Source: Acanthamoeba castellanii str. Neff (Eukaryota > Discosea > Longamoebia > Acanthamoebidae). From it: DNA of 64,000 nt. The translations under genes and the position numbers were made by a program. Positions 1 to 60,465 of this stretch are shown here, in pieces. Position 1 is the first letter of the stretch. Every line of letters begins with the position of its first letter. The notes under the pieces are model-generated. The model was not told the origin of the DNA. It worked only from the letters and a program-made list of their open reading frames with translations, and ran no database searches. The DNA is taken from positions 522,124-586,123 of the forward strand of contig NW_004457538.1 of the NCBI RefSeq assembly GCF_000313135.1, in the 5' to 3' direction.

Positions 1-3000
1 GATGGGGGCAGCTCGCCGGTGATCTTCCGCGGCAGCGGGATCGTGGGCAGCGAGCTCGACTGCTGCATCTGCAAGATGCCCTGCGCGCGCAGGTCGACCT
101 GTCCGCCCAGATTGGGCGAAGACTGGCTCGTCGCTGGCTGCGGCTCAGGGCTACGTGCGTGCGACTGTCCCGTGCGCGGTGGTACGTGTGCGTGTGCGGT
201 TGTGCGTGTCGTGCGGTGTGAGTGTATCGATCGTGCAGCGCAAAGGGAGCACGGTCGGCTGCCGCTGTACCTCGATGTACTGTGCGTTCTTGAGGATGAT
301 CTCGTACTCGAGGGAGATCTGGCGCGCGAGGAAGTCCATAATGCGCAGCTGGTAGAACTTGCGCTTGATCTTCTCCGTCTTGTGCTCGGCGAAGCACAAC
401 AGAATCTGAAGTAATTACATTCAACCAGTCAATACAAATCGCACACGCACGCATATCCACGAACGCGCACTGCACACGCATAGGAATAGAGTAGGCGCAA
501 GAGACGCAGTAGCGAGATGTACGAACCTGCAGGTGAAGGGCGCACAGGGAGAGGGTGGACGAGTCGAAGCCGTCGCTATTGTACAGTTTGAGGAAGGTGA
601 GGTAGTGGTGGCTGATGAAGAACTCCGTGTAGGCCTTGTTGCAGGCGAACGGGTTGCACGGCGTCATCAGGATCTGCCCGAACAGCTGCAGCATAACCTT
701 CTTGACCTGCATTCCACCCATTCCAGCCACCATATATTTCATTTAAAGAACAAATAACAGAAAGCAACAGAAAGCACAGCGAACATCACATTTCAATAAT
801 AAACAATAAAAACAATACATTGGGATTTTACCTCAAAATTGGTGAAGTGGTTGCCCTGGCCGAGGAACCGCATGAAGTAGCCGGTCTGCGGGCTGATGAG
901 GAAGCCCAGCTGCTCCAGCAGGCAGACGCACCACGCCGTATCACTGGGATTGGTGTCAGCAACGCAGCCCATGTTTTTCGCTGCGAAGGGGGGCATGGCG
1001 TACTTGTCCTCCTCCTTGTTGCTCTGGGCGACGTCCTCCTCGGCGCTGTTGATGCGGGTGAGCTGCGGCAGGCTGAGCGCGGCAGAGCCGGACAGATGAA
1101 GCGGAGACGTGGGGAACTTGCGCTCCTCGATGTACTTGAGCTTGGCACCCACCAGCGACACCAGCGAAGAGAACAGCTTGATGATCTGTCACACAATTAA
1201 GATGAGTTGGGTGGCGTTGGTGTTCAATTTGAAAAGGGAAAACGCTGGAGTGTTGTTAGAGGCGCACCTGCAGGCGGTATTCGGTGAGGGTCTCTTTGCT
1301 CTCGTGGGAGGTGATCTCTTGTATGGTCTGATCACTGAACAGTATGCGCTTGGCATAGCCCCTATCGTACATGACACGCAACACGCAACACGCAACACGC
1401 AACACGCAACAATGTGAGTCGGTGAGATGTGTGGCACAGAGCACAATGAACGAGGTGAGGTATGTACCGGAAGAAGAGGACGGTCTCGTTGGTGCCCAAC
1501 AGCAACTGAAGAAGGAACACTAGAGTGCCCTCGTGCTTGGTCTGGGCGCACAGCTCTTGGAACACTCGCACCAGGGAATGGGTCTGTCTCACACGCCGAA
1601 GGCCTATGTGAGCAAAAGAGCAGATGTGTGCACGCGCGCAGGCCGATCGTACCAAACGGATGTGCTGAATTCTCATATCTTCGGACAGGGACTCGGGCAC
1701 CATGTTGAACACCAGGAACTGCGATTTATGTGGTCAGCCATAATATGCATGCCATTATTATTATTATATTATTATTATTCAGAGAGTTTGTACCTTGACG
1801 TGCAGGAGCGTCTCCATGGCGACGTCGATGACCTGCGAGGCCATGACGCGCGTGGGGCAGAAGTGGAGATAGTCGCCCAGCATGACCAGGCACAGCTCGA
1901 GATCGGCCAAGTTCTGGCGGGACAAGGCATCACACAGCTGCGAGTGCACGCGGCATAGGAATTTGTCCAAGCCGCGCCTGAAATCCATTTTTCTATGTTT
2001 GTTCGGTTTTAGTAGCGCGTCATGTGTGCGCCGTGTACGTCGCGCGCGTGTGCGTCGCGCGTGTGCGGTGATGTAATGCGAGTGCGAACCTTTGTACAGA
2101 CATAGGCCGCGTTTCGTGCTGCCACGCGATCCGATGGCAGTACTCCACACGGTCAGACACGGGCTGCAGCACACTGAAGAGCCTGTACGTTTGAATGCAT
2201 TCCACCCACATTCCACAAGGTCAGCACCCAAGAAAGAGTGCGCTGATTCGCATTGCGGGCGAATGGGGCGCGTACAGGGCGCGGAAGGGTTGGTCGATCT
2301 TGAGCAGGCCGTTGGCGAGCGCCTTGTTGAGTTCGGTGAAGATGAGGTTGACCGGGCTGCGCACGTAGGCGTAGAGGTGCGGCAGGGCGATGATCTTGGC
2401 CAGTGCCTTGAGGATCATCGTCTTGATTTTATAGGGCGCCGTCGACCGGAAGGACGACGCCTCCGGCTTGAGCTGGCCCGGTTTGAAAATGGCCTGCGCG
2501 AATGTCGTGCGTGAGAACAGCCGTCGAACCGCACGACACGCACGACACACACAACACACCACACACACGACGCAGACTGTACGAGAGAGTTGTGAAGATT
2601 GGACAGCGAGGTGGAGAGGCGCTTGGATCGCCGCTTGTTGCGGGCCTCGGCAGAAAGATCGGTGGGCTCGTCGGGATTCCCCACGCCCGTCTTGTACCGC
2701 ATCAGCGCTGTCAGATCGGCCGCCACCGCCTGTACGCACGACACGCAACACCGCACACGCCCCATCGCACACAAACCCAGGAACAAGGTCAGGGCTCCCG
2801 CGCCGTAAGCCAGAGAGTTGCGGTGTGTGTGGACACGGCACCGTCTCGCCGAGATTGAAGGCCAGCTTGGTGAGCTGGATGGAGGGCGTGATGTAGAAGG
2901 ACGTGTTGCGCCCGAGCTCCTTGCCAAACGATCCACGTCCACTCGTCGGTGTGCGCGGCGTTTCGTCGTTGATTCCTCTGCCGTGTATGACGAGAGGCAG

Positions 3001-4330
3001 TGAGTACTTGAATCGTTCTTTTTCGATGATGCGTTGTGTGCGGTGAGAAATGCGGTACCGGCGCCGAGAAAAGCGGGACTGGGCCGACGCGAGCCCGTCG
3101 TCCTTCGTCTTGGTGGCCGCGGAGCTGAGCGAGAGCGCCGGAATGACGGGACGCGGCGACGAGCCTGCCCAACAAAAAGTACAAAGAACGAAAAACGACG
3201 AAGAGAACACGAAGGTGAAAAAGAACGAAAAAAAAAGAAAAAGAATGGAGGAGGAATGCAAAGGATGCGTACTGTCGACAGAGGTGCGGGGCGTGGAGAA
3301 TTCCACGGATGTGTTCAGCTTTACACCCTTGCCCTTGTTCTTCTCCCCCTCCGCGTCTTCCTTCTCCTTCTCCTTCTCCTTTCCTTCTCCTTCTCCTTCT
3401 CCTTTCGTGTCGGTGGGGGGCGTCTCCTTGATGTCGCTGTGCTGGTCCTTCTTGTACTCCTTCTTGTTGTGCGTCTTGAACCGCTTCTTCATCTTCCTGA
3501 TCTTGCCCCGCTTGATGACCAGCGGCGGCGGGGGCGGGGGCGGCACCGGGATGTGGTAGTTGGCCGGCGCCGCCAACGCCGCACTGCCGCCTCCCGAATC
3601 GAAGAGCCCCGACGAGGCGCCAGGTCCGCCCGCCGTTCGATGTGCTCCTTCCTCCATCTGTTTCCAAAATTAAACACAAAACGTTTAGATTTACAACGCA
3701 CACGCACACAACACACGCCACAACGCGCACGACGCGCACCACACGCACACAACATACGACACGACACGCATGGATAGATGCGAGTACCCGCTTGAAGAGG
3801 GCCTTTTGGAACTCGGCTTCGGCGGCACTATCGGCTTCAATTCGATTTGCCGCATCATTATACACCTCCAGCATCCGATTCACGCCCAACTCTTGCACGA
3901 ATATCTACACACCCCGCACACACATCAGCTCGCATGCGTGTGCGCGCGTGTGGTGGTGCGTGTGCGGCGTGCGGCGTGTGGGTGGGTGTACCGTCGGGAA
4001 GGGTTCAATGTCGGTGGAGCGGATGAGGACGGAAAGGAGGGTGAAGAGGCCCACGCACTCACCCCACGGGAACTCTGAGTCTTCCTCGCGCGCCTTCTTC
4101 AGCATTTCGCCCATGAGCTTCACGAACTCGCGACAACCCTCGGCGTTGTTGCTCAGCAGATGCCGCAGGATCTTGCCCACGAGCATGTCCCTCTTCTGCG
4201 GCGGCGAGAGGGTGGTCGTGGGTCCATCCAGCTGCAGATCGGACGTAAACTCGGCGATCAGCCCACTGTGCACACGACACACACGACAAACACACACACA
4301 CGATGCGACACACACAACACGACACGCACA

Positions 4331-4362
<32 letters not shown>

Positions 4363-6764
4363 TACGAGACAGACACTAGCTTTAGTATGACGGCACTATG
4401 ATTGTGGGTAAGAGGGCTATGAAGCGCACCTGGCGACCAGGGCGTCGAACAGGCCGCGCCGGATCCAGTCCATCTTCTCGTTGGCCAACTGGCCCACTTT
4501 GACAGCATCGAAGAGCTCCTTGAGGAACGTGTTGAGGCCTTCGCGCGGATCCGTGTACTTGCGTTGCTGTGTTGCCAAAGAGAGATAGAGAAAAAAATAA
4601 GTTGAAGGAGGAAACCATTTTACATACAGGCGACACAGTGAAACAGTGCAATTACCGATCGAGTCGAACTGCTGCCCGAATCCGCGATGTCGATTGTTTG
4701 CTCGCCGGCTGATAATATAATAATAACATGTGGTAAGTTGAGAGGCCCGAGCGTATGTGCTTCTTAGGGGACCCGCACCTTTCTTCAGCCGCTCGATCAC
4801 CGCCGACTTCTCTTTACCGGTGAACGCGAGCACGTCAAACTGGCCCTGCAAAGACCGTACGCGTTCGAGTCAGCTTCGGTCCCTCAGGGGCATCAAGGCC
4901 CGTGTGCGAAATACGGCTGACGCACCTTCTTCCCGGCCTTGCCGTGCATGGGCAGCAGGCGAGGCGAGGGGATGTGAAGTCGCGAGGGATTGGCCCCCGA
5001 CGAATCGGACAGGTTGGCGGGCCGGCTCGACGACTGAATGGACACGCCCAGGGCCTTCATCTGCGGCTCTGTCGCCTCCTCCATTCCCAGGAATTCTGAA
5101 GTCGCATATTAGCGCAATGCACTCGTGCGGTTGTGTGCGTGTGCGTGTGCGTGTGCGGTGGTGCGTGTGCGGTGGTGCGTGTGCGTGTGCGTGTGCGTGT
5201 GCGTGTGCGTGTGCGTGTGCGTGTGCGTGTGATCAAAAAAGACACATACCGAGAAGGAACTCGTTGAAGGTGTTGATGGATTTGATGTCCTCGCCCTTCT
5301 TGCCGAAGAAGGAGAGATTGGAGAAGACGATGCCCGCCTCTGCCGTCTCCACCTCATCCTGGTGGTGGCCAACACGAGAGAGGAGAGGTGTGAGGATTCT
5401 CGCTCTCGCCAGGTCTATCAGCTCACGTTGGGGCCGGGACTCGGTCGGTACCTCTTTCTTCTTTTTCAGGACCAGGCGAGTGCCGTTGGCAGGGAAGATG
5501 AGGTACTTCTTATAGTAGAGCTCGTTCTTCAAGTCGGGGCTGTACGAATCCAATGGTTTCTCTGCAATCCACACAAAAAAATGTAAGCTTATGAACGCTA
5601 TGTAGAACATTCATATATATATATTTCTATTATTAAGAAAGGTCTATAGAAATGTGACGTACCAACAAAGTTCTTGTTGGACACGAACTCGGCGATAAAC
5701 GACTGCAGCTTGGGCAGGAACTCGGCCGTGGATCGGATGTGTCTGATCGGCGACGAAAACGACGACAATGGTGATGATGATAGTTCACCCACGTCAGCTG
5801 TTGTACATGAAAAGGAGAGAGGGAGATGTAGAAGAGCGTACGAGTAGGAGTTCTTGTCGCATTGGCACAGGAGGATCTCCTTCTTGGAGGCCTTGACCCG
5901 CAGATGCGGCACTCGCAGTATTTGGGTGAACAGCAGCGCACCAAACTTGTAGGTCAGCAGCAACCTGGTTGCGAGCCATTGCAGCCCGGCGGCCGTAGAT
6001 GAGCCAAGAACAAGACGGAATACCCTATGTGGGGGTGTGCTGTGCGGGAGAAGTGGACGTACGGCGAGCGTGACCACTTTTCGATGAAGACCGGGTCAAG
6101 CCGAAGGATGCAGTACCCGGGCGGCTTGTCCTCGAACAGATTGACTGCAGTCAAAGGGATTACAACGATCATCGTAATGTTGCATTGATTAAAATAAATC
6201 GAGGCCGTTGAGATTGCAGATATGCAAAGAGGAGGGATAAAGAGAAGGAGCTGGGCAGCCACTGAAATGAGAAGTTGGAAATGTGCATTTGTTGTTTTTT
6301 TTTTTTTGATTATTATTTTTCCTTTTCGAGATCGTACCGATGGGAAATAATAAATAAATCAAGTCGCGGAAGAACGAAAAGAGAAGGGGGGGACGCACCG
6401 ACTTGTTCGGAGGAGGTGATGTGAAGGAAGATGGGAGCATCTTCCTTGCCTCGCACCAGGCCTTTGATTGTGGTCTTGCCCTTGGGCACCAACTTGCCCA
6501 CCGACATGAAGACCGTGAGGTTTTTACGATCGAGTCCAAATGTTTGTTTAGTTCCCTAGCACTCTAAGGCGTCTCAAGTAATCTACAATCATGTACGAGA
6601 TGAAACCAAAGGGCTTCCTCGTCTTCTGTGGTTTGTCTTGTTTTGTGTTGTATTTCTTCGTTATTAATTTTCTACTAACTCCGGTGCATACCCCACATTC
6701 CCTTCTCTCTGCGTTCACGTGAGACACACCTCTGGGCGTACTGCTCGCTAAAGTCGTCGATCAT
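1..6764 (-). CDS. Large multi-exon protein of unknown function, 3' end cut by the window edge
   Basis: At least 18 short exons can be chained on the minus strand. A candidate first exon begins at 6764 (MIDDFSEQYAQ), but its donor does not splice cleanly in phase to the next exon, so the start could instead be the Met at 6507 (MSVGKLVPKGKTT). Phase-consistent joins then follow through 6401, 6150, 6031, 5738, 5561 and onward. The middle (about 3650-3300) carries a proline run (IPVPPPPPPPLVIKRGK), then a lysine-rich and Glu/Gly/Lys low-complexity stretch. The rest is leucine-rich and looks helical, for example KRDMLVGKILRHLLSN near 4180 and KFYQLRIMDFLARQISLEYE near 350, which would suit an armadillo/HEAT-like solenoid. 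I do not recognise the family. The gene continues left of base 1, so the C-terminus is missing. Several introns hold (ACGC)n or (TGTGCG)n repeats. Confidence 0.6.
4324..4362. repeat. (ACGC)n microsatellite in an intron
   Basis: Tandem ACGC units in an intron of the large unknown minus-strand gene. Confidence 0.85.
5136..5231. repeat. (TGTGCG)n microsatellite in an intron
   Basis: About 95 bases of TGTGCG units with small interruptions, inside an intron of the large unknown gene. Confidence 0.85.
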
Positions 6765-6812
6765 AAATCAGCAAGTGGTGCCGTTTTTATTTTAATTGAG
6801 AAACACGGCACT

Positions 6813-7475
6813 CTAGTTCTTGTTGCTGTTGTAGACATCGCGTGCCAGGTAAGCCTTGACCCGCTCGCGCTGCGCCACCACGTCGACCAGCTTCTGCACC
6901 GCGGGGAAGGGCCCCAGCAGCGAGTCCTTGCTGCCCTCGACCCGGGCGAACACCAGCTGCAGCGCCACCCACAGACTCAGATCGGCGTAGCTCAGCTTCG
7001 AGCCCACCAGATACCCGTTGCTTCCGTTCCGCTGGAGCAGCTTCTCGAAGTGAGCCAGCTGCGGAGGCATGGTCTCCTTGACCAGCTTGGCCTTGGCCTC
7101 GGCCTGCTGGTCGGCCGGTGTGCCGAAGATGACCTTGGCGATGGCCGTGTACACGTCGGTCACGCCCTCCTTGGCCTGGTCGATGAGGGCCTCCTCGTGG
7201 GCGTTGCTGCCGTTGTAGCCGTACTTGCGAGCAAGGTGGCGGGCGATGGCCGCTGACTGGACCAGCGTGAGGCCGTCGGGCTCCTCGTAGAGCGGGGTCT
7301 GGCCGAAGGCGAGCTTGCCGGAGGCGGTCAGCTGGGACTTGAGCTCGGGCCAGTTGGTGACGGGCACGAAGTCGTAGTCGACGCCCGCGTCCTCGAGCAG
7401 GAGGCGCGGCACCTCGGCCCGGCCGAAAAGGTTGAAGTAAGTGAGGGTGGGCTTGGTCACAGTGGTGGTGGTCAT
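6813..7475 (-). CDS. Glutathione S-transferase, sigma-like
   Basis: Single-exon gene of 220 residues, the usual length for a cytosolic GST. The N-terminal thioredoxin-like domain (about 10-85) opens with PTLTYFNLFGRAEVPRLLLE. Tyr13 of this segment is the expected catalytic tyrosine that activates the glutathione thiol in alpha/mu/pi/sigma GSTs. QTPLYEE and QSAAIARHLARKYG follow, matching the glutathione-binding loop and the QS motif. The all-helical C-terminal domain has KLSYADLSLWVALQ, the conserved N-capping box region. The role is conjugation of glutathione to electrophiles in the cytosol; sigma-type members can also isomerise prostaglandin H2. It is unusual among its neighbours in having no intron. 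Assignment to sigma rather than another Tyr-type class is inferred from overall pattern. Confidence 0.9.
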   Translation of the reverse strand: MTTTTVTKPTLTYFNLFGRAEVPRLLLEDAGVDYDFVPVTNWPELKSQLTASGKLAFGQTPLYEEPDGLTLVQSAAIARHLARKYGYNGSNAHEEALIDQAKEGVTDVYTAIAKVIFGTPADQQAEAKAKLVKETMPPQLAHFEKLLQRNGSNGYLVGSKLSYADLSLWVALQLVFARVEGSKDSLLGPFPAVQKLVDVVAQRERVKAYLARDVYNSNKN

Positions 7476-7706: not shown

Positions 7707-9768
7707 CTAGGTCAAGGCGAGGGTGTGCCTGCCATTGGATGAAACACTCTGAATGGCAAACGGAGCCAACTTCTCGATCTTCTTCGGCGTGGTGACTGTG
7801 TCTGTGGTGCCATGGCCCAACCTGCAGCCCTCCCCAAACAGTGCTTGAATAAATTTCTGGATTCCTCTCCAATTTCAAACATGAATAGTTTAGAAAGATA
7901 GACGCACCGGTAGTGATCACCACAGCCAAAGCTATAAACGGAGCCATCTTCCATCACCACGAAACTGTGCTGCGCGGCTGCCACCAGGCCTTTCACCTTA
8001 CCGCCGTCACACAGACACTACCATCAACATGTGTGAGTGTACCATCGCCATGCTCATCTGGCGTAAGTACCTTGCTGATGTCTGTGAGTAGGTTCCCAAC
8101 CCGCTGAGTTGATGATGCTGGCTCAGCATCGGGTTCAAAGCCCAGCTGGCTGCGTGAGTTCATACCAAAGGTGAACACACAGCCATCCTCCGTGGCCACC
8201 AGACTGTGTGCTTCTCCTGGTGGTGCACACACGACATTCGTTGTTGTTTTTGGACTGCACGTCGTTGCCACGACCGAAACAAACCAGAGGTTTGGCCTTA
8301 CCGGCAGCAATGACAGTTGCCACTTTGTCAGCAAGCGCTGGGATCAGCTTGGGCTCGCACTGCGCGTCGGCGGTCACCGCATAACCCAATCGACCGTTCC
8401 CATCTCTGGTTTGGAGGGTGTTGAGTGTTGCGCTTGACGTGACATGGCCGTAAAGGAGGAAACATACGAATCTCGCCCGCAGGAGAAGACTTGACCGTCG
8501 TCGGTGAGGAACAGGTTGTGGAAGTCGCCGGCCGATGCGGCCACGACGCGCTTGGCCTCGAACGCGCCGCCAATGAGCATGGGCGTGGTCACGTCCTCGT
8601 TCACGGCGGGTAGGCCCAGTATGCCGTACGATCCGTCGCCCCAGGCATAGGCCCGGCCGGTCTTGGTCACCGCCAGGCTGTGCATGTTACCTCCGCTCAT
8701 TTGCACCACTTCCTCCCCTGCATCATGTGCCGTTGGTCGTGTGCGGTGCACGGCCAAAGAAAAGAAAGAGAGCGGCGGGGAGTGAACCACAAAGGCCAGT
8801 GATCAGAGTGGCAACCGAGCGGTCATTGGCGTCGCCTAAACCCAGCCGCCCGTTGCGACCGTACCCGAACGAATAGAGCTGAATTGTATTGGTAAGCATC
8901 AGCAGCGAGGCGACGAGTGCGCAGCGAAGGAGTGGAGGATCGTGAAGAGGCGCGTACGGTGCCGGTGCTGGTGAGCACCAGCGTGTGGAATGCGCCCGCC
9001 ACGACTCGTATGGCAGTCACGTCTTCCAAGCCCACCACCCTCCGCGGCTCGTGGAGGCTGGCGTCCGGCTTGTCCTCGCCCTGACCCAGCTTTCCCTCTT
9101 TACTGTTGCCACACGCGAACACCTGCACGTGCATAAATGAGACCTGTGGCACACGCCACAAGCTGCACACGCAACACATGCAACACAGGCCACACGCGCA
9201 ACCCAGGCCACATGGCTAACTGGAGTACCTCACCGCAGGCGGTAAGGAACACCGAGTGGTGCCAACCGGCAGCCACGCTCACGACCCGTATGCCCTGAAA
9301 CGCTTTAATGCGCGTAGGTGTGCTGCATCTCGCGACCTGCGGTGCTTTAATGCCCTCTCAGTGCCGGTCACTGCACAAGCACACGCACCACGCACACGCA
9401 TGCAGAGAAGGGCGGGCAGGTGGGGAGTACAGCGACATCGCGGGGGTGGCCAAGCGGTGAAGTCTCTTGTTGGCCACCGCAGGAGAACACGATGCCGGCG
9501 AGCATGGCCCGCCGCACGGCCTCGCTCTTGCACACCTCCCGCCACCGCCTAAGGCCATGTTGCCCCATATAGTGCCTCCACCAGGTCAGAGATGTGGTTT
9601 CGTTAACTGGAGAGGAGGAAAGAGGGGGGGGGGTTACCGACAAACGAGGGGCAGGATGCGGAGGTGGCTGTCGTTGAGGCATGCTGGCGATAAGAACACC
9701 AATTCTAGAAGCTCCTTGTCCACCAGCAGGGCTTCGATGCTGGACCCCTCCGCCCCTTCTTCCTCCAT
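7707..9768 (-). CDS. RCC1-repeat (seven-bladed propeller) protein
   Basis: Multi-exon gene starting at Met 9768 (MEEEGAEGSSIEALLV), with the first donor at 9637. The N-terminal exons read WWRHYMGQHGLRRWREVCKS, reminiscent of the end of an F-box-like helical module. Later exons each supply one RCC1 blade: VFACGNSKEGKLGQGEDKP, GRAYAWGDGSYGILGLP, GQVFSCGRDS, GCVFTFGMNSRSQLGFEP and GSVYSFGCGDH, alternating with HSLAVTKTG-type strands. The last exon joins in phase at Arg to give LGHGTTDTVTTPKKIEKLAP and ends NGRHTLALT followed by a stop at 7707. RCC1 repeats serve as GEF or protein-interaction platforms. No feature shows that this is the Ran exchange factor itself, so only the fold is assigned. 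It is divergent from the malate synthase-allantoicase gene with 233 bp between start codons. Confidence 0.85.
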
Positions 9769-10001: not shown

Positions 10002-13000
10002 ATGGCAGCAGCAGCGCAGGTCAGCAGAGAGGGTCCCATCCCGGCATTCGATGAGTACGTGCCGCCGGCGTACCTCGCCGCGTTGCGGAGCCACCCATCG
10101 ATGGTTACTGTGGGCGGCGTGGAGGGTCTGCAGCTCGCCACGGCCCCCGAGGCCTATGCGGATTTGCTGTCGCCTCAGGCCCTCAATTTCGCTGTCGATC
10201 TCTACCGCCGATCTCTCACCTTCCAGCATGCCCTACAGCCGGCCCTGGCCCACCGCAAGATGAAGAGGAACTGCCTCAATCGTGCCGCTTCTGCCCTCGC
10301 CGAGGCATCATCACAGCACAAGAATCAGGTAAATCCGGATTTTACAATTATGAGATTTAATTTTACGTTTTTGTTGATTTGATTTTATTATTGCAAAATT
10401 TTATCTTCAATGTGACCATAATAAATATTTAATATTTATCATTCTTTTTAAAACGCAGGCCAAGGTGGCGCTGCAAGATGTGCGGTTGGACGATGGTACG
10501 GTGGCGCTGGGCTACCGGCCCGACACCAAAGGGCTCCGCGACGACCTCTCGTGGAAGGTGGCCCCCATTCCGGCCTCGTTCGCGCGCTTCCACGACACCA
10601 TCACGGCCCCGCCTGCCGCCCTGCCCATCGCCAAGGCCCTCGGCTGCGGGGTGCACTTCCTCATGGTCGACTTCGAGGACTCGTCCACCGTCGCCTACGA
10701 GAGCCTACTGGCCGGCCTCCACGCCTGCACCCTGGCCAACCGCCGTCAGTTGGTCGCGACCAGCCCCAAGGGCAAGCGCTACGCGGTCACTGACGACGGC
10801 AAGCCTATCTCGACCGAGATGCTGCTGCGCTTCGAGGGCCTGCACCTCCCCAACGCCCACTTCCTGGTAGACGGCTTCCCCATGCCGGCCCACATCGTCA
10901 CCATCGCGCTCTACCTCTACCACAACTGGCAGCCGCTCCAGGTGCGCAAGCAACTGCTGTTTCCCTCTCGAGTCCGCGCTTTGCTAACCACACACGACAC
11001 GACACGACACGACACGACACGACACGACACGACACGACACGACACGACACGACACGACACGACACGACACGACACGACACGACACGACACGCACACAACA
11101 CAGCGCATTGGCAAGACGCCGGCGTTCTACATTCCGAAGCTGGAGACCTTCGAAGAGGCGGCCTACCTGGCGGAGCTCTTCCGGGCGGCCGAGGCGCAGC
11201 TGAGCACCGCGTCGCGCGGCGCCTACAGGCCGGGTGCCCTCCGCTGCCTGGCCATCGTCGAGAACGTGTTCGCGGCCTACCAGAAGGAGGAGATCCTGTT
11301 CGCCCTGCGCGACTACATCGTGGGCCTCAACTGCGGCTGGCACGACTACATGGCCTCCATCGGCGCCGTCCACCAGAACCTGCCCTCCTTCACCATGGCC
11401 CCCAAGTCCAACCTCAGGTCTTCATCCCACTACATCGTCATCATCACCTTCACCTTCACTTTCACTTTCATCTTCTTCATCGTTTTTCATGTGCTGACTG
11501 GGCATATTGTACATAATATGTTCGTATTATGTTCGTATTATGTACAACAGAATCGTGGTGGAGCACCTGGAGGCCTACCAGATGGGCGTGGTGGACGCGT
11601 GCAAGAGGCGCAGTGCGATCCCCATCGGCGGAATGAACGGTATGGTGCCGCCACGCGGCCCGCACGCCAAGGCCTCGTGGGAGAGGATCGTGCCGGCCTT
11701 CGCCCAGGACTTCAACGTCCAAGTTGACCGCGGGGTACGTTGGACGACACGACACACGACACGACCACGACCGATATGCTGACCAGTCGCGTGGGCTCCC
11801 GACAGCTCGAGGGCTGCTGGTTGGCTATGCCCAAGCTGGCGCCGGTGATCTTGAAGCTGATCGCCGACATGGAGGAGCGCAAGCGGAAGCAGTCGCCCGA
11901 GCAAAGGAAGGCCGAGCACATGAAGATCGTCGAGAGGATCAGGTGCGTGCGCCGTTGCTTTCCCGATGCTCCGCACAGTGAGCAACTCGTCGACGCGCTC
12001 CACTAACACACACGTTTGTTAACAGGCAAATCACGCACGAGAAGATGTTGGTGTCGGGTCTGGATTACGAGGTGTCCAAGGAGGAGGACTGCGAGCGCAA
12101 CCTGTCGGACGCTATCCAGTACCTCACCTCCTACCTCGCGGGCAACGGCTACGTGCCCATCACCAAGACCTTCCCCGACGGCGTGCCCGTCACGCTCGTG
12201 GAGGACGCCGCCACCCTGGTATGCATACCACAAACATTCCGCGCATTCCACCAGGGGCTGACGTCATCTTTGTGTCGACTGGGTGAATGTGCGAACAGGA
12301 GCGTTCTCGCAGGGAGCTGTGGAGCATGCTTCGCTACGGTAAGGAAGTGCTCCTGGCCAACGGCCAGAAAGTTCCGGTACCGTCGTAGTTTAATTGTTTC
12401 AATTCACATGATTGCTCACGACACACCACACACACACACGAATGATACGACGAATATGCAGCTGTCGAGGGAGCTGCTGGACAAGCTGGTGAAGCGCGTG
12501 GTGCAGAAGGTGAAGGCCAACAAGCTCGACGTGCCGTTCAATGCCCACACCAAGATCCCGCTCGACGTCGCCGTGCACATCGTGTACCAGCTCGTCACGT
12601 CGCCCCAGCCGGCCGACTACTTCACCGTGTTCGCCACGCGCTACCTACTCGCGCCGTTCAAGCTCGACCTCATGGAGGTGGAGCGTCTGGGCAACGTCGA
12701 CCGCTTCCCCTTCCTGCGCATGGACAACCTCATGAAGGGCGCCGAGCTGCTCTTCATCTCCAACGAGTCCTTCGCCCCCGCCTCCAACCTCCTCAAGGAA
12801 ACGTACGTCTGCATGGCTGTGTAGAGTTAAGGAGGCGTTCACTCACTCACACGCATTCCACACGCATTCCTGTCTCGACACAGGTACCCGATCTTCGTGC
12901 CTCACTCGTTCGGATCGGAGGGACAGATCTACGACGGCTGGGAGACAGTGCGACACAACATGTATCCTCCTGGTAAACCTCCCTGGCACCCTGTTACATA

Positions 13001-14590
13001 GAAAAACACGTGCATTTTGCTGAGCTTTCCTCGTTGTTTGTGCGCGCGCGTGGTGTGCCGTGTGCTGCGTGCGTTGTGTGCGTTGTGTGTGTGCGGCAAA
13101 CGCAAGATTTCGTGATTCTGAAGCTGGATGCGCCCTCGTTTGTTCACGGCGTCAACATCGACACGGCCCACTTCGACGGCAACTATGCCCCCGGTGGTTC
13201 GGTCGAGGGTCTCGTGCTTGTGGAGAGAAACAAGCGGTACCGACTTTTTCTCTCAGTCCCTCACTCCTTTGTGAGCGCGTGTGCGGCGTGTGTCGTGTCT
13301 TAAGTGCGTGTGCGGTCTCTAAGCGTTGTTGTTGTCGTCGTTCGTTCCGCTCTCTCCGCAGATTGCTGCAGAAGTGGGTGACGCTCGTTCCTCATTCCCT
13401 GCTGAAGGGCAACTCGCGCAACTACTTCGCCAGCATCGCCACTACCGTGCCCGTGGTGAGCGTCAAGCTCAACAACTTCCCCGACGGTGGTATCGCACGG
13501 TACCGTGCCCTTCATTCACTCGCACTTACGGCCAACCACACTGCGTCGTGCACTCACTGTCGTGTCGGTGGTCGGTGGTCGTCGTCGTGTGTGGATGTAG
13601 GCTTCAACTCTTTGGCGCCAAGACGGACGAAAAGGTGGCGGACATGTCCAACGCGGAGTGGACACACCTGGTGGCCCACGAATGGATCGGCAAGCTGCAG
13701 CCCACCACCGGCTTCCCCGCCCACTTCCAGCCGCCCGGTACACTACTCCCCGTCCCCGCCCCTCCAACGCAAGTCTCCCGGCCGGGCTGACTCGCCCCTT
13801 CTTGGCCGCCACAACAGAGAACTCGGCGCTCGACGTCGCTCCGCCGGCCCCCGTGACCGAGCGACAGCTCAAGGAGGCCCTGCCGTCTTCCTTCGCCTGG
13901 GGCAAGGGTAACACATACACACGTGTGCGATCCCAGCGAATGCCCACCCTCACACGTGCCGTGCGTGTTGTGTGTTGTGATGCAGGCGACGGGCTGGTGG
14001 ACGTGGTGAGCGTGGACGCGCCCGGCGGTGGCGGTAAGGTGGTGGCGAGCAGCAGCGCGCACTACAGTGTGCCGAGCAACATGCTCAAGGCGCCGCGCGC
14101 GCTGAACATGGGCGACGGCTGGGAGACGGCGCGCATGCGTGGACAGCCCGACTACGGTGTGTTCCACCTCGAGGGTCCCGTGCTGAGCGACTACAACTGG
14201 ACCCTCTTCAAGCTCAGCCAGGAGTGCGTGATCAAGAAGATCGGCGTCGACACGCTCCACTTCAAGCACAACAACCCCATCGCCTTCTCGCTCGAGGGCT
14301 GCTACGAACCCGGCCTCACCAAGGACAACTACCACTCTCGCGGCATCAAGTACACCCAATGCACTGTGTGTGCGTGCGTGCATGTGTGTGTGGTGCGGTG
14401 TCTAATAGTTTTTGCGTGGAATAGGTGGACGAGCCTGGTCAAGCCGAAGGCGCTCCAGCCGCACCTGGAGCACCCGTTTGATGCGGAGCACGAGGGGCGC
14501 GTGACGCACGTCCTCCTCAAGATCTACCCCTGCGGTGGCATCTCCCGCCTCCGCCTCTTTGGCAAGCCCGCCAAGGCCTCCGCCCTGTAA
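10002..14590 (+). CDS. Malate synthase-like / allantoicase fusion protein
   Basis: Fifteen exons splice in phase to 1056 residues: 10002-10328, 10459-10941, 11104-11417, 11551-11734, 11806-11942, 12026-12218, 12299-12376, 12462-12802, 12884-12972, 13107-13236, 13362-13499, 13601-13737, 13818-13907, 13986-14349, 14425-14590. Residues 1-640 are malate synthase type A: DFED at 180-183, IVEN with Glu323, VGLNCGWHDY at 343-352, and VEDAAT with candidate base Asp542. Residues 650-1056 are allantoicase with two repeats, including NESFAPASNLL, GWETVRHN, NIDTAHFDGNY, then MGDGWETARMRG, VDTLHFKHNN and GGISRLRLFG. Exon 8 carries both the end of the first enzyme and the start of the second without a stop. 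Allantoicase converts allantoate to ureidoglycolate and urea; ureidoglycolate gives glyoxylate, which malate synthase condenses with acetyl-CoA. The C-terminus ASAL is not a canonical peroxisomal signal. Some malate synthase motifs are altered, so that activity is uncertain. Confidence 0.93.
10988..11094. repeat. (CGACA)n pentanucleotide tract in intron 2 of the fusion gene
   Basis: About twenty perfect CGACA units inside intron 10942-11103. The intron has no stop codon in the reading frame of the flanking exons, so retention would keep the frame open. Confidence 0.92.
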
Positions 14591-14671: not shown

Positions 14672-14743
14672 TTCCGCTGCCGGGAATCGAACCCGGGGCG
14701 CATGGGTGAGAACCATAAATGTTACCGACTACACCACAGCGGA
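14672..14743 (-). tRNA. tRNA-Glu (CUC)
   Basis: A complete cloverleaf of 72 bases: acceptor TCCGCTG pairs with CAGCGGA with discriminator A, anticodon loop TTCTCAC gives CUC, and the T arm is CCGGGTTCGATTCCCGG. A T run follows on the minus strand as pol III terminator. Confidence 0.95.
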
Positions 14744-14772
14744 TTGGTTAAATAGAGTGGGTCTTTTTTTCG

Positions 14773-15248
14773 CATCCAACACCATCCCAACCCCACTGAG
14801 CAACCAAGGTAACAGGTAAAAACAGTAACACTTTCAAACAGAAGATCCAATCAAGAGAAGCACAGATTGGTGCCCATTGTCAGTGAGTGGTGCAGATTGT
14901 GATGCACAGCCTCAGTCCTTTTCACACTTTCCAGCTTACTGCCCTTATTGCTCAGTGCCAAGAGTGTTTAGACTCATCATGGGGAGGGAAGAAGAAATGT
15001 GGTGTGAACTCAATGAGCTGAAGAAGCATAAGGCTGACCATGTGCCCATCCCAAAGAGAAGAAATCCAGGAAGGTGGCCTATGCACTGATGATGAGGCTG
15101 GATGAGGCCCCACCAGAGTGCCCATGATTTACACCTTCATGTACTGCCCAGTGGGCAAGCAGGGCATTTACCACAAGCATGGCTCCCAGTCAGATTTGTT
15201 TCTGGTACTACAGCCACACCAAAAATCAGGATGGGACAGTAAAAAGAT
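14773..15248. other. CpG-free block between tRNA-Glu and tRNA-Phe
   Basis: No CG dinucleotide occurs in about 475 bases, whereas flanking genes are CpG-rich. A 70-codon open frame at 14877-15089 shows no recognisable domain and is probably chance. No gene is seen. Confidence 0.75.
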
Positions 15249-15266
15249 CGATTTTATGATTCTTCT

Positions 15267-15339
15267 TGCCCTCTGCCGGGTTTGAACCAGCGACCTCACG
15301 ATCTTCAGTCGTGCGCTCTACCAGCTGAGCTAAGAGGGC
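15267..15339 (-). tRNA. tRNA-Phe (GAA)
   Basis: The 73-base cloverleaf has acceptor GCCCTCT/AGAGGGC, a D arm with GCTCAGCTGGTAGAGC, anticodon loop CTGAAGA (GAA) and T loop TTCAAAC. It is identical to the copy at 23112-23184. Confidence 0.95.
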
Positions 15340-15465
15340 GGTTGAAAAAAGTGCAAGTTACTTTGTTGTCATTCAAAGTGCACAATACTGGGGCTAAGAA
15401 TCCTCTGGGCTCGAGCCAAAAAGAAATCAAGCAAGAAAGTGCAAAAGGTGAATGATGCTGGATTC

Positions 15466-15537
15466 CAGGCCTGCTGGGGGTCGAACCCAGAATCTCCTGA
15501 TTCGTAGTCAGACGCCTTTCCATTGGGCCACAGGCCT
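15466..15537 (-). tRNA. tRNA-Arg (ACG)
   Basis: The 72-base cloverleaf has acceptor AGGCCTG/CAGGCCT, anticodon loop CTACGAA (ACG) and T arm CTGGGTTCGACCCCCAG. It is identical to the copy at 29324-29395. A TTTT terminator lies downstream on the minus strand. Confidence 0.94.
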
Positions 15538-15611
15538 GTCGCTGATATTTCGTCCCCAATTCGCAGGCCTGGTGTGGTCCGCTGCCCAAGTGAAGGAAAA
15601 TAAAAAAGAAA

Positions 15612-23111: not shown

Positions 23112-23184
23112 TGCCCTCTGCCGGGTTTGAACCAGCGACCTCACGATCTTCAGTCGTGCGCTCTACCAGCTGAGCTAAGAGGGC
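23112..23184 (-). tRNA. tRNA-Phe (GAA)
   Basis: Same 73-base cloverleaf as 15267-15339. Its own CpGs are intact although both flanks have none. Confidence 0.95.
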
Positions 23185-29259: not shown

Positions 29260-29323
29260 CGGCAGGTGTATCTTTTATTTCCTGAAGCACTACTTCAGAG
29301 GAAGAACAATAAGATGAGTGGTC

Positions 29324-29395
29324 CAGGCCTGCTGGGGGTCGAACCCAGAATCTCCTGATTCGTAGTCAGACGCCTTTCCATTGGGCCACAGGCCT
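29324..29395 (-). tRNA. tRNA-Arg (ACG)
   Basis: Identical cloverleaf to 15466-15537, anticodon loop CTACGAA. Confidence 0.94.
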
Positions 29396-29572
29396 GTCGC
29401 TTATTTTTTTTGCCAGCTGAAAGTTACACCGCTAATCTCAAGTCCTCCCACGCCGCTCCAGAACCTGCGGGCGCACATTATGTTGCGTGTCACTGTCTTC
29501 TTGCGACCCCTCACTGGAGTTTAGAATACTAAGTAAATGCAAAGTAGGTGGGATGTGCTGCCAACAAGCTCA

Positions 29573-32600: not shown

Positions 32601-35600
32601 TCAGGAGTAGGCGAGGATGGTGCGCAGTACGGTCCAGTACTGGAAGTGGGCCTCGTGGCCGAACTCGTCGCGGCCGCCGCTCTTCGCGTAGAGTTGCTTG
32701 CTCGTGATCTCCACCACCGGCCCCGGCGCATACCACCCAAACTGCGCCCGCCAAAGTCAGCGTGTGTCGTGTCGTGTCGTGTCGTGTCGTGTCGTATGCG
32801 GCTTTGTGCCAGAGTGTGTGCGGTCGTGCATGCGTGCGTGTGTGGCGTACGAAGGGTGGCGATGGCGGCGATTTGGGGGTCTGGTCGCCCTCGAGGTGGA
32901 TCTGGAGGATGCGGCCGTTGAGCTGTTGGTTGAGCCAGCGGGCGAAGGTCTTGCGCGCGTAGCGCGGTGCCCCGAACTGAATCAGGAAGAGCCGTCGCCG
33001 CAGCTGCGGATATCGGTGGATCAGCTGAAACGCCGCCATCGCCGCCAGCGCCGCTCCCTGCGTGTCGTGTCGTGTCGTGTCGTGAGTGCGTGTTTGGGGG
33101 GGACACGGGGGGGGGGAGGCAGGGTGCCGTCGCGCACCATGCTGTGACCAGTAAAGACGATTCGCTTGTTGCTGTCGCCGGCCATAGCGGCCTCGCCGAG
33201 TCGCTGCACGATGCGCTCCACCAGGTCGCAGCCGTGCTGCTTCCAGCACCCCTTGCTGATGGCCTGTTTCCCCCCCTCCTTCGTTTGTGCGTGTATGTGT
33301 GTGCGCGCGCGCGTGTGTCGTGAGTGGGTCGTGTGTACCTTGTACATCTGCCAGAAGCCGCCGTGCACCTTCATGCCGCCGATCATGTTCTGGGGCACGA
33401 AGCCCTTGGCGATGCCCAGCAGGCTACTGCCCCGCTTGAAGTACGCCGCCTCCCACGGTCCCACCTCCATCTCCGCTGCGCAATGCCCCGCACCACCACC
33501 CGCGTCAGCCCCAGCGTCCCAGTCCCAGCCCAGCCGTTTCCAGGGAGGATGGCCGAACCTCTGCTGAGATTGGCGGCCACCTTGAGAATCATATCGTTGT
33601 CCTTCATCCCGAAGAACCGCACCACCAGCTCGCTGCAGCCCACCGCACGCACCGCACACACGCGTGACCGTCGTAAGCTTAGGGGAGCGACCCAGGAGGG
33701 GGAAAAGTGGTGGTGGCGGCGGCTCGGTACCCATCGTCGAGCTCGGGCTGTAGGGGCAGAGAGTCGGCCTGGACGCCGATCATGGAGAACGAGCGGGCCC
33801 GCTTCTGGGTCTTCTCGAGCTTCTCCTTCTTCCGCCGGTTCTTCTTCATCATCGTCGCCACCACCGACGAGCCCGCCTCGTTGCCGTTCCCGTCGCCGCT
33901 GGCGTGGCGGTCGTGATGCGCCAGCATGTGGTCCACCGCCGCCATCAGCGTCCATGACGACGACGACGACGATGGAGAAGACGATGAAGTTGACGACGAT
34001 GACGATGATGAAGAAGAAGATGAAGAAGATGATGATGAAGAAGACGATGTCTGATGATGGTGATGGTGGGTGAGAGAGATGTGTCGCAGGACCATGTCGA
34101 GCGACTTGGAGCGGGTCTTGCGTCGCTGCATGCGGGCCTCGTAGTTGTGGTCGCCGGCGAGCGTCGATCCGATGCCGGCCCGCGTTGTGGGCGGCCTCCG
34201 CGCGGGCAGCGTCCGCACGGCCTTCTTTAGCTTCCTTCGCTTCTCGGTCGCCTCCACCGCCGTTGCCAGCGTGACTGATCGCTTCTCGCTCTCGCTTTCG
34301 TTTTCGCTTTCCTTCTCTTTATGGTTGTCGTTGTCGTTTTCGTTCTCGCTTTCGCTTTCCTTCTCGCCGACTTCTTCGGTGGCCGAGGCGGAGAGGCTAC
34401 GTTGGCGCCGGCCGCCAAGCGCCACCGACCGCGCGCGGTGCAGGCTTTCATTATTGTCATCGCTTTCGCTTTCGCGTTGGCGTTCGTCTTCGCTCTCTCG
34501 TTCGCGTTCGTCTTCGCTTTCGCTTTCGCGTCGCTGGTCCTCGTCGCTGCTGGCCGGCTGCGGTGGTGAGCGCTGGTGCCCCTCGACCGGCTCGAAGCCC
34601 TGCGAGTCCAGCACCCCCAGCTCGTACTGTCTCCTACACTCCGCCGCCGCCGCCGCCGCCATCGTCAGCGCAAATCGTGTGTCGTGTGCGGTGGTGTGTG
34701 TGCGTGTGCGGTGTGTGTCGTGTCGTGTCGCGTGTACCGGAGCTCTTTGATCTCTTCCTCGAAGATGTTGCGCTTGACGAAGTGCGCCTGGGACTGGGTG
34801 AGGTGGGACGACGTCTTCCGGATCATCTCGTCGGTGGTGCCTCCGACAGCCTTGTCCATCTTCGCCGTCTGACGCGTTCATCCACCAAAGCAGCTACATC
34901 AGTACACGCCGTACGTGTGTCGCATGTGCCGTGATGCGCATGTAGTGCGTACCTTGAGAATCTCCACTCGGACGATGCTGCGTTTGAGCACACGTCAGCA
35001 GCCAAAATAAAAGAATAATTAATAATAATAGTAAAAATTATATGAATAGAAATAGAATAATAGGAAAATGAGGTGCCCGCGCACTTGTTGCTGTCCCGGA
35101 TGGCGATGCGTCCGTAGTAGTCCTTCTTGTCCTTGGCGGGCAGCCGCGGGTTGTTGCTGTGCTTGAAGCTGGCCCTATTCTGCAACGCACAGCCACATCA
35201 TAAACACACGCACCGCACCGCACACGCACACGCACACGCACACGGGCGGTGGTGTACGTACCATTCGTGTGAGGTGGGGCCACATTGTGTGGTCTCCGTC
35301 GCCGTCCTCGAACATGTACTCAAAGAAAAAGAAGACGTCGGCGAGCAGTCGCTTGGAGGCGGTCCACACCGGCAGCGGCTCATCCGTGAACTTGCCCGCC
35401 ACCTCCCCTGACCACGTTCGCACCACCACAACGTACAACGTTCCTCATCAGTCGAACACCGCACACCGCACACACCGCACACAGCGTACACGCCACACAT
35501 GTCGCACACACCGCACACACCGCACACACGGATGTGTGGAGGGTTACCGTATATGGGGGAGCGCATGACCTGTTGGCCGTAGCACTCGTGGAGGAGGGTG

Positions 35601-57320: not shown

Positions 57321-60300
57321 ATGGGTCGTAAGGGTACAAGGCTGCTCCTGGTTCTGCTGGCGGTGGTGGCCGTCTCTGTGAGCTGCGTGGCCGCTTCGGC
57401 CGACACGCAGACGGTAGACGCACGCCTCACTGCCAACTTTGTCACCGGCTACTCCATCACCCAGTACTCCACACCTCCCATAGATAGCGCTATATATATA
57501 TATTATATATATCTATTGATTAAATTGTTTTCTATTGTCCGCTGTAGGGCGAGAACGTACTTGAACAGCATCCAAGCTGATGGGACCTGGTCTGGTACGT
57601 TGTTTTGCCTCGCCCACCACTGGTCGCGTGTCTCTCTACTCAAACTACACATCTTGTAGACGTCGACTACACGGCCGGATGCAGCGCCGACCCATCGAGC
57701 TGGCCTGCCCTGGTTCACCTGACCCGCGTTCTCAGTACCGAAGCGCTGGCTCCATTTATTTATTTTGTTTATTTTTTATTTTTTATTTACATATTGCTAA
57801 CCCTCACTTTGTGGTGCATTTTTTGTAATATTAAAATTCAGAGATAACGCAGGCGTGGTATGCGGTCCCGGCTCTGCGCTCCAACGCGACGGTGCTCGGC
57901 GGGATCATGCTCGGGCTCGACTATTGGCTCGACAACGACTACGCCAACGAGTTCTGCACCAACCGCAAGAACACCACCGCCTGCCCCTGCTCCACCCCTG
58001 GTACCCAGTCTGGTGTCCCCCACCACTCGTGCGTGCGTGCGGTGCGTGCGGTGTGTGCGGTTAGTGCGGTGTGTGCGGTTAGTGCGTGTGCTTACAATGA
58101 GTGCAGGGCTGTGGAACACGAACTGGTGGGCGAACATGATTGGCGTGCAGCTCCAACTGGGACCAACGTGCCTGCTGCTGCGCTCGGCGAGCTCGTCGGT
58201 CTTCACGGCCGAGCACAAGTCGCACTGCGCCAAGATCCTGGGTCGCGCCAACTGGACCGGCTTCACGGGCGCCAACACGCTGTGGCTCGCCCAGGGAGCC
58301 GTCTACGCGGGTCTTCTCACGCAGAACGACACCGCAGTCGCCGCAGCCTTCGCGGCCAGCAACAACGAGCTGTACTACTCGTCTGGTTCCGATGTACGTT
58401 TTGTTGTATTGCGTGTGTCGTGTGTGTTGCGTGTGTTGCGTGTGCTGCGTGTGCTGCGTGTGTCGTGTGTGTCGCGTCGTACGTTTCCTGTAAATGGCTG
58501 ACCGCACGACCTCTAGGACGGTATCAAGCCGGACGGCAGCTTTCTGCAGCACAGGGGCCTCCTCTACACCGGCGGCTATGGGTTCGTATGATTTATTCTT
58601 TTCTACGACTTATTACTTTTAAATTTATCATTAAAATGCTATTATGGAAATTAATAGAGTTATTTATTTAAATTCAAATTTATTTATATATTCTGTGGCG
58701 TGTTGCAACATAGTGACTCGTTCATGGCGACGTACGTCGACATGTTCGTGTCGGCCGTGGGTACCGCGTTCGCCTCCACCGCCGCGCAGCGCGAGGTGTT
58801 CGCCAGGTTCGTGCTCGACGGACTGCAGTGGATGATGGTCTACTCGCCCGGCAAGAACATCTACGACCCGTCGGTGGTGGGCCGGGCCATCTCCCGCAAG
58901 GTCGGCCTCGTCGCCTCCCTCGACACCAACTCGCTCACCAACCTCACCGCCGGCTGGTACGCATCGCACACGCCCGACCGCACACACCGCACACCGCACA
59001 TGCGCGACCGCACGCACCGCACACCGCACACACGCGATTAATTGAGTGAACAGGTCGCGCCAGAAGGAGTTCGAGGCGTTCGTGGAGGTGGTCACGTCGA
59101 ACAACGGGTCGCGGCTGGTGGGCAACCGCATGTACTGGGCCTCTGACTACATGGTCCACCGCCGCGCCCACTACGTCGTCAGCGTCAAGGGCTTCTCCAC
59201 CCGCATCGCCAACTCCGAATGCGTCAATTCAGAAAATTTACTCGTACGTGTGTGCGGCGGGTGTGTGCGGTGGGTGTGTGCGGTGTGTGCGTGTGCGGTC
59301 CGTGCTCACAAGTGAAGGACAGGGACTGCATTTGAGCGACGGCGCGATGTACGTGCACCAGTCGGGCAACGAGTACGGCCGCGTCAACGACACGGCCGAC
59401 CGGTCCGTGTTCCCCCTGTGGGACTGGAACCACGTGCCCGGCATCACCGTCGACTACGGCGTCGGCGCGCTGACCTGCGCCAGTCTCTACGCCAAGGGCC
59501 AGGCCGGCGGCTTCGTCGGCGGCGCGTCCGATGGCACCTACGGCGCCTTCGCCATGCGCTTCGTGTCGCCCTTCACCCGCAACCTCAGCTTCCAGAAGGC
59601 GTGGTTCATGTTCGACGACGAGGTCGTGGTGCTGGCGGCCAACATCACCTCGCTCGACCCGGCCGCCGCCGTGCACTCGGTGCTCGACGCCAAGGTGCTC
59701 AACGGCCCCGTGACGTCGAGCGTCGCCGGCGCACCGATCGCCGTCGGCAGCGGCACCTCCCAGCCCTGGTGGCTCCACCACGACTCGGTGGGCTACGTTT
59801 TCCCAGAGAACCGCGGCGTGGCCGCCGCCAATGGCTCTGTGACGCTGCATCTGGAGACGGCGAGCGCGTCGAGCGGGTCGTGGAGCACGATTGGTGAGGA
59901 CTCGGGCACGATCGCGCTCCCCACGTTCAACGCGTGGCTCACCCGGCAGAGCGCGCCGGTGGTCAACGACTCGCTGGCCTACGTGGTGGTGCCGGGCGTG
60001 TCGGCGGCGGCGTTCGACCCGGCCGCGACACTGGCGGCGGTCGAAGTGGTGGCCAACACGCCCCACGTCCAGGCCGTGTTCCACACCAAGCTGCGCCTGC
60101 TGGGCGCCGCGTTCTGGTCGACGACCGAGGCCGATCAGTCACTGCAGTCGCCGGGCCGGCGCGGGTGGCGCGTGCGTGTGGACCAGCCGTGCGTGGTGCT
60201 GGTTCAGGAGGTGGACGACGGAACGCGGCTCAAGGTCACCGTGTCAGACCCGACGCAGGCCTTGAGTGGTGTCAACGTCACGATCGACAGAGCGGTGGCG

Positions 60301-60465
60301 TGCGCGGCGTGCCTGATAGCGAGCGACCAGGCCAGCACGACCATGAGCTTCAGCCTCACGGCCGGCAGTGGTGCCTCAGCCTCGACTATTGTCACTTCCA
60401 CTGATGCCTCTGCCGCGTCCACACTAGGCACTCACTTGTCTGGCCTTGTCGCCCTTCTTCTGTAA
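57321..60465 (+). CDS. Secreted polysaccharide lyase family 8 enzyme
   Basis: A multi-exon gene of PL8 type (hyaluronate, chondroitin or xanthan lyase family). Start MGRKGTRLLLVLLAVVAVSV gives a signal peptide. The alpha/alpha-toroid domain contains LWNTNWWANMIGVQLQLG (catalytic Asn region) and IKPDGSFLQHRGLLYTGGYG with the His and Tyr of the catalytic set. The central beta domain has YMVHRRAHYVVSVKGFSTR, LHLSDGAMYVHQSGNEYG and a long supersandwich, with NHVPGITV. The C-terminus ends in Ser/Ala/Thr-rich sequence and a hydrophobic tail (THLSGLVALLL), so it may be GPI-anchored. The family cleaves uronic-acid polysaccharides by beta-elimination; the exact polymer cannot be told. It is mostly bacterial and fungal in known distribution. 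The last exon (about 59,318-60,465) is unusually long for this genome. Confidence 0.9.

Follow-up and report, generated by a model that had tools for sequence, protein, structure and literature searches.

Does the genome of Acanthamoeba castellanii str. Neff encode malate synthase and allantoicase as a single protein, and if so, what would such a protein do? The question is raised by a gene on the + strand of a 64,000-nucleotide stretch of contig NW_004457538.1 (positions 522,124 to 586,123; this whole stretch is called the window, and positions below are those of the window). A first-pass annotation had proposed that 15 exons join there in phase to 1056 residues and that one exon bridges both domains without a stop. 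The fusion is a real nuclear gene, not an artefact of splice prediction or assembly, and sequence comparison indicates that it is a conserved family found beyond one genome. Its predicted role, to which we assign a probability of about 0.8, is that of a bifunctional purine-catabolic enzyme that would take allantoate towards glyoxylate and capture the glyoxylate as malate.

Independent splicing by script gave the same structure. The gene spans 4589 bases, starting with an ATG at 10002 and closing with a TAA whose last base is 14590, and its 15 exons join in phase to 3171 nt (1056 residues plus the TAA). All 14 introns have GT..AG boundaries in a donor and acceptor check at the locus. An end of exon 14 at 14365 was discarded because it shifts the last exon out of frame, while an end at 14349 restores the frame and yields the 1056 residues. 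The junction of the malate synthase and allantoicase domains lies within exon 8 (12462-12802), which carries both TVFATRYLLAPFKL and LLFISNESFAPASNLL with zero stops between them, and the spliced frame and the Pfam matches agree that this exon bridges the two domains. The gene and its parts are listed here; residues are also aligned with those of Escherichia coli malate synthase G (MSG), and PTS1 stands for peroxisomal targeting signal type 1.

10002-14590, + strand: whole gene, ATG to TAA, 15 exons, 1056 residues, from splicing and the near-identical spliced database protein P0001
10002-10328, + strand: exon 1, residues 1-109, N-terminal part of the malate synthase half; Pfam MS_N unmatched at E 0.001
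10459-10941, + strand: exon 2, residues 110-270; R233 aligned with catalytic Arg 338 of MSG
10942-11103, + strand: intron 2, 162 nt, about 22 copies of ACACG, no in-frame stop, not in P0001
11104-11417, + strand: exon 3; E323 and D351 aligned with the MSG Mg ligands Glu 427 and Asp 455
11551-11734, + strand: exon 4, malate synthase
11806-11942, + strand: exon 5, malate synthase, W441
12026-12218, + strand: exon 6; D542 aligned with the MSG catalytic base Asp 631
12299-12376, + strand: exon 7, malate synthase C-terminal domain
12462-12802, + strand: exon 8, the fusion junction, where malate synthase ends and allantoicase repeat 1 begins in an uninterrupted frame
12884-12972, + strand: exon 9, allantoicase repeat 1, GWETxRHN stretch
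13107-13236, + strand: exon 10, allantoicase repeat 1, DTAHFDGN stretch
13362-13499, + strand: exon 11, allantoicase repeat 1, PDGG stretch
13601-13737, + strand: exon 12, end of repeat 1 and linker
13818-13907, + strand: exon 13, linker between repeats
13986-14349, + strand: exon 14, allantoicase repeat 2, MGDGWE stretch
14425-14590, + strand: exon 15, end of repeat 2, C-terminus ASAL, a weak PTS1-like tail

A spliced copy of the gene was found among database proteins. P0001, of 1056 residues, is identical to the window protein except for S396G and is encoded on a contig of 3280 bases, whose source tag ('lgn') denotes assembled public reads. This contig is shorter than the 4589-base gene and so must derive from spliced RNA rather than from unspliced genomic DNA. 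One message must span both domains, as deduced from the sizes of the P0001 contig and the gene, not from reads. P0002, which is 89% identical to the window protein, is likewise encoded on a contig of just 3289 bases. Intron 2, at 162 nt, is divisible by three and has no in-frame stop, so that its retention would keep the frame; P0001 nevertheless lacks it. Most of this intron is filled by the ACACG array (about 22 units, 10992-11101), and shorter ACACG runs were seen on the opposite strand near 32764-33081.

Relatives of the window protein were sought among approximately 5.8 billion proteins, with scoring limited to the 7997 candidates that had the most words in common with it (7997 also for the malate synthase half searched separately, and 7994 for the allantoicase half). 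The whole-protein search returned 11 proteins, seven of which (P0001-P0007) carry malate synthase and allantoicase domains. The domain pair, which the first-pass annotation had proposed looking for elsewhere, is thus present in six fusion proteins besides P0001: one is P0002 and the other five, P0003-P0007, share 44-48% identity with the window protein. In P0006 the malate synthase C-terminal domain is not among the precomputed annotations. P0007 (908 residues, on a contig of 12105 bases) has an open frame across the junction and ends in a probable intron, with most of repeat 2 missing. The seven proteins fall into five deep branches (P0001/P0002, P0003, P0004, P0005/P0006, and P0007), between which identity is 45-51% in the malate synthase halves and 37-53% in the allantoicase halves.

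Phylogenetic trees were inferred for each half. The malate synthase tree was built from the 7 fusions, 5 fragments, 12 of 15 other matches to the malate synthase half (P0149-P0151 were dropped), 4 whole-protein matches, and 2 paralogs from the same genome, 30 rows in all. The seven fusions and P0132-P0136 formed one clade (support 100/100), and the 18 ordinary malate synthase rows, including both paralogs, fell outside it. In the allantoicase tree, whose 41 rows comprised the 7 fusions plus 34 of 120 listed proteins (from 3133 matches in all), the fused halves formed one clade with P0013-P0015 and six fragments (support 100/99), apart from the 25 other allantoicase rows. Both trees were midpoint-rooted for drawing only, and branching inside the fusion clades was partly unresolved. 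That both halves each form their own well-supported clade points to a single old fusion event having given rise to the family. In the allantoicase tree, P0023, labelled Pseudomonas aeruginosa, grouped with Amphritea sequences. Another same-pathway fusion, the combination of the 2-oxo-4-hydroxy-4-carboxy-5-ureidoimidazoline (OHCU) decarboxylase domain PF09349 with the allantoicase domain PF03561, was present in 39 of the 120 listed proteins (for example P0017-P0020).

P0134, a malate synthase fragment on a 3559-base contig, was considered, along with P0132, P0133, and P0135, as a stand-alone malate synthase of the fusion clade. P0132, P0133, P0135, and P0136 may be of that kind, but for P0134 the idea was dropped because the other frame of its tail is codon-compatible with P0013, an allantoicase, at 95 of 97 positions. 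The tail is also compatible with P0014 at 86 of 87 positions and with P0015 at 84 of 87; in a control of 200 shuffled tails, read in two frames and compared with P0014 only, the highest fraction was 0.49. This match indicates that another lineage has both domains in series, with a break between them that is probably an intron. These data bear on whether two adjacent genes with separate true products were merged by exon joining or by an assembly error, as might be feared at a locus so rich in introns. Such a merger is extremely improbable, given that an intron-free contig covers both domains, that P0002-P0007 each have both, that P0007 crosses the junction on its own contig, and that P0134 continues from malate synthase into a stretch fitting allantoicase. 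The assembly break that the first-pass annotation had considered is contradicted by the same proteins.

Two motif patterns from the malate synthase half, scanned against a prokaryote collection described as covering 84,980 species, found one relative at 29% identity, and a motif scan of viral contigs found zero; both scans had low sensitivity. Within that sensitivity, the near-empty result suggests that the family is eukaryotic.

Analysis of the two halves showed that each retains features expected of its enzyme. In the malate synthase half, the TIM-barrel domain PF01274 matched residues 230-473 (136.2 bits against a cut-off of 26.4), and the malate synthase C-terminal domain PF20659 matched residues 500-627 (44.9 bits against 23.1). 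MSG residues Arg 338, Glu 427, Asp 455, and Asp 631, whose roles are taken from PMC3112382 (papers are cited here by PMC number), are all kept in the alignment, as R233, E323, D351, and D542. These four catalytic and metal-binding residues are invariant across fusion lineages with only 45-51% identity in this half. PF03561 matched two stretches of the allantoicase half (242.7 bits against a cut-off of 27), best at residues 665-812, and the conserved allantoicase motifs are retained.

From these features a pathway can be proposed. The C-terminal half would cleave allantoate to urea and ureidoglycolate, ureidoglycolate would lose a second urea to give glyoxylate, and the N-terminal half would condense glyoxylate with acetyl-CoA to form malate. 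With both enzymes on one chain, toxic glyoxylate would be trapped and the final two purine-ring carbons would pass into malate; channelling between the halves may occur. The C-terminal tripeptides of the six complete tails, P0001-P0006, are SAL, SAL, AKL, AKM, GEQ, and ASL. AKL in P0003 and AKM in P0004, together with the weaker SAL, SAL, and ASL tails, suggest a peroxisomal location, which is probably the site of the enzyme.

The genome (38.4 Mb, 250 contigs) encodes a profilin identical at 125 of 125 residues to profilin II of Acanthamoeba castellanii (PDB 1f2k/2acg); an Acanthamoeba rDNA primer had no match in it, perhaps because the assembly lacks rDNA. The remainder of the pathway was sought in this genome by profile searches made exon by exon. 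Uricase was found at C161 and OHCU decarboxylase at C44, and there was an allantoinase-like gene, best at C207, in which no single exon attains the equivalog cut-off. No allantoicase beyond the fusion gene was found in this search. Urease (alpha subunit, PF00449) was not found in the genome by a search that was positive in 4 of 14 control genomes; the pathway would release two urea without it, and the urea is presumably excreted. PF02615 matched at three places and was considered for ureidoglycolate dehydrogenase, a possible alternative sink. The first exons at two of these three places scored higher against L-sulfolactate dehydrogenase than against AllD (161.5 versus 117.2 bits and 152.2 versus 106.1 bits, all below cut-off), and the closest solved structure to one of the two is malate dehydrogenase.

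Malate synthase was found at two further places in the genome, a plain gene at C48 and a fusion with isocitrate lyase at C189, so that two different malate synthase fusions coexist there. The C48 gene (G000:C48:56500-65500, about 3150-5610) is 60% identical to the ordinary malate synthase P0008 over 504 positions and 27% identical to the fused malate synthase half; by eye, its C-terminus is HPRF, with no PTS1. The C189 gene (G000:C189:127500-136500, about 2680-7000) has, by eye, an N-terminus resembling a mitochondrial presequence.

Several results count against a bifunctional enzyme of this kind. The malate synthase N-terminal domain PF20656 was unmatched at E 0.001 and is annotated in none of P0001-P0007. 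The malate synthase A model TIGR01344 has a cut-off of 594.5 bits, which was not reached by P0001 (252.2), P0003 (225.7), P0004 (267.9), or P0005 (203), compared with 822.6 for P0008. At position 235, all 12 fusion-family rows have Glu and all 18 ordinary malate synthase rows have Arg. The allantoicase equivalog model TIGR02961 (cut-off 277.9) was missed by P0001 by 4 bits (273.9), and P0003-P0005 scored 247.7, 214.9, and 230.4. The predicted arrangement of the two allantoicase repeats failed to superpose on whole yeast allantoicase, with a root-mean-square deviation of about 20 A (19.4), and in a Foldseek comparison the modelled half matched its overall arrangement poorly (template modelling score 0.42 by target). 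The window protein ends in SAL, a non-canonical PTS1, and P0005 in GEQ. Finally, neither ureidoglycolate lyase (PF04115) nor ureidoglycolate amidohydrolase (TIGR01879) was found in the genome, though in either case an intron-split gene could escape an exon-by-exon search. The PF04115 search was positive in 1 of 14 control genomes (E. coli) and the TIGR01879 search in 11 of 14. Eight M20 peptidase matches in the Acanthamoeba genome indicate that the TIGR01879 failure was not blindness to the M20 fold. The two fused enzymes would thus act immediately before and after ureidoglycolate cleavage, a step for which no enzyme was found.

The low malate synthase A score, the lack of PF20656, and Glu235 make a shifted substrate possible. 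The malate synthase-like half, or the pair of halves, might cleave ureidoglycolate, in which case the protein would be an allantoicase-ureidoglycolate lyase that replaces the missing lyase and possibly also makes malate. Such a replacement would account for a genome in which earlier pathway enzymes were found and PF04115 and TIGR01879 were not. It would also fit a half that forms a long-branched, separate clade with diagnostic Glu235, and it has a fungal precedent in Cryptococcus DAL2,3,3, in which allantoicase is joined to a lyase/hydrolase (PMC3646786). We nevertheless consider it unlikely, as residues for binding Mg and glyoxylate and for acetyl-CoA enolisation are kept, which a pure lyase would not need, a short intron-split lyase gene could have been missed, and ureidoglycolate also decays unaided (PMC6320678). 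The presence of two other malate synthase genes, which could make this activity redundant, and the weak scores against malate synthase models would also be compatible with a half that is no longer catalytic and serves as a scaffold or regulator of allantoicase, for example as a sensor of acetyl-CoA or glyoxylate. This is improbable, however, as four invariant catalytic and metal residues at 45-51% identity are hard to explain without catalysis.

A bifunctional enzyme yielding malate is therefore preferred, and the literature bears on how its middle step might proceed. Spontaneous breakdown of ureidoglycolate is noted in PMC6320678, PMC3646786 cites a paper with ureidoglycolate as a substrate of allantoicase in its title, and according to PMC3743077 allantoicase activity in some animals yields urea and glyoxylate. 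These statements suggest that the second urea most likely leaves spontaneously or at the allantoicase half, with the malate synthase half then capturing glyoxylate. A stricter version is possible though doubtful, namely that the single polypeptide converts allantoate and acetyl-CoA to malate and 2 urea (plus CoA), with the cleavage of ureidoglycolate carried out within the same protein, either by its allantoicase half or by a malate synthase site that has been re-tuned. Were this so, a conserved group, at least partly eukaryotic, would need no separate ureidoglycolate lyase, and glyoxylate would stay on the enzyme. A comparable gap was reported for Nephromyces, where orthologs of neither ureidoglycolate-cleaving enzyme were found and a different amidohydrolase was proposed (PMC6320678); the fusion is a candidate for filling it here.

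The first-pass annotation had argued that the pairing makes metabolic sense. Yeast Dal7, a malate synthase that disposes of allantoin-derived glyoxylate (PMC3646786, PMC3743077), agrees with this, although the two fused enzymes do not catalyze adjacent steps, as ureidoglycolate cleavage intervenes, and the pathway is one of purine catabolism, not the purine salvage named there. Dal7 itself differs in being a separate protein, encoded in the yeast DAL cluster. Cryptococcus Dal2,3,3 likewise joins allantoicase to an enzyme that acts later in its pathway, with channelling proposed (PMC3646786); its partner is the next enzyme, whereas that of the window fusion is one step further and the middle enzyme was not identified. 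The malate synthase-isocitrate lyase fusion of nematodes and Euglena (PMC1630690; also in PMC4921024), of which C189 is an example, likewise joins malate synthase to a glyoxylate-yielding enzyme. There, glyoxylate comes from isocitrate rather than allantoate, and the malate synthase halves belong to different clades. Fused purine-catabolic enzymes and malate synthase fusions are therefore already known, and what is unusual here is the skipped step.

Stand-alone relatives of the two halves differ as well. In contrast to E. coli AceB (malate synthase A, PDB 3cuz/3cv2), the fused malate synthase half belongs to its own clade, has Glu235, and carries an allantoicase; it shares 27-30% identity with the four ordinary malate synthase rows compared. 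The family brings a divergent malate synthase clade; compared with isoforms A and G, it scores below the curated cut-off for A and resembles G only weakly. Relative to yeast Dal2 (PDB 1sg3, 1o59), the window type has a longer linker between repeats and sits C-terminal to malate synthase, and in the predicted model the orientation of its repeats is different or uncertain.

As the first-pass annotation had supposed, no description of a malate synthase-allantoicase fusion was found in a search of 5.39 million open-access papers, eight of which name both enzymes, with subscription papers and preprints outside its coverage; the available portions of PMC7737231 and PMC7710942 describe none. The family would represent an apparently undescribed, conserved bifunctional enzyme linking the end of purine breakdown to central carbon metabolism.

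Other features were noted in the window. Upstream of the fusion gene, at 8823-9215 on the - strand, is an RCC1-repeat frame, possibly part of a gene divergent from it. Five tRNA genes (Glu, Phe, Arg, Phe, Arg) lie on the - strand at 14672-15538, 23112-23184, and 29323-29396, and three of the five cluster immediately beyond the 3' end of the fusion gene, on the strand opposite to it. A polysaccharide lyase family 8 frame (PF02278, PF02884) is found on the + strand at 59050-60462.

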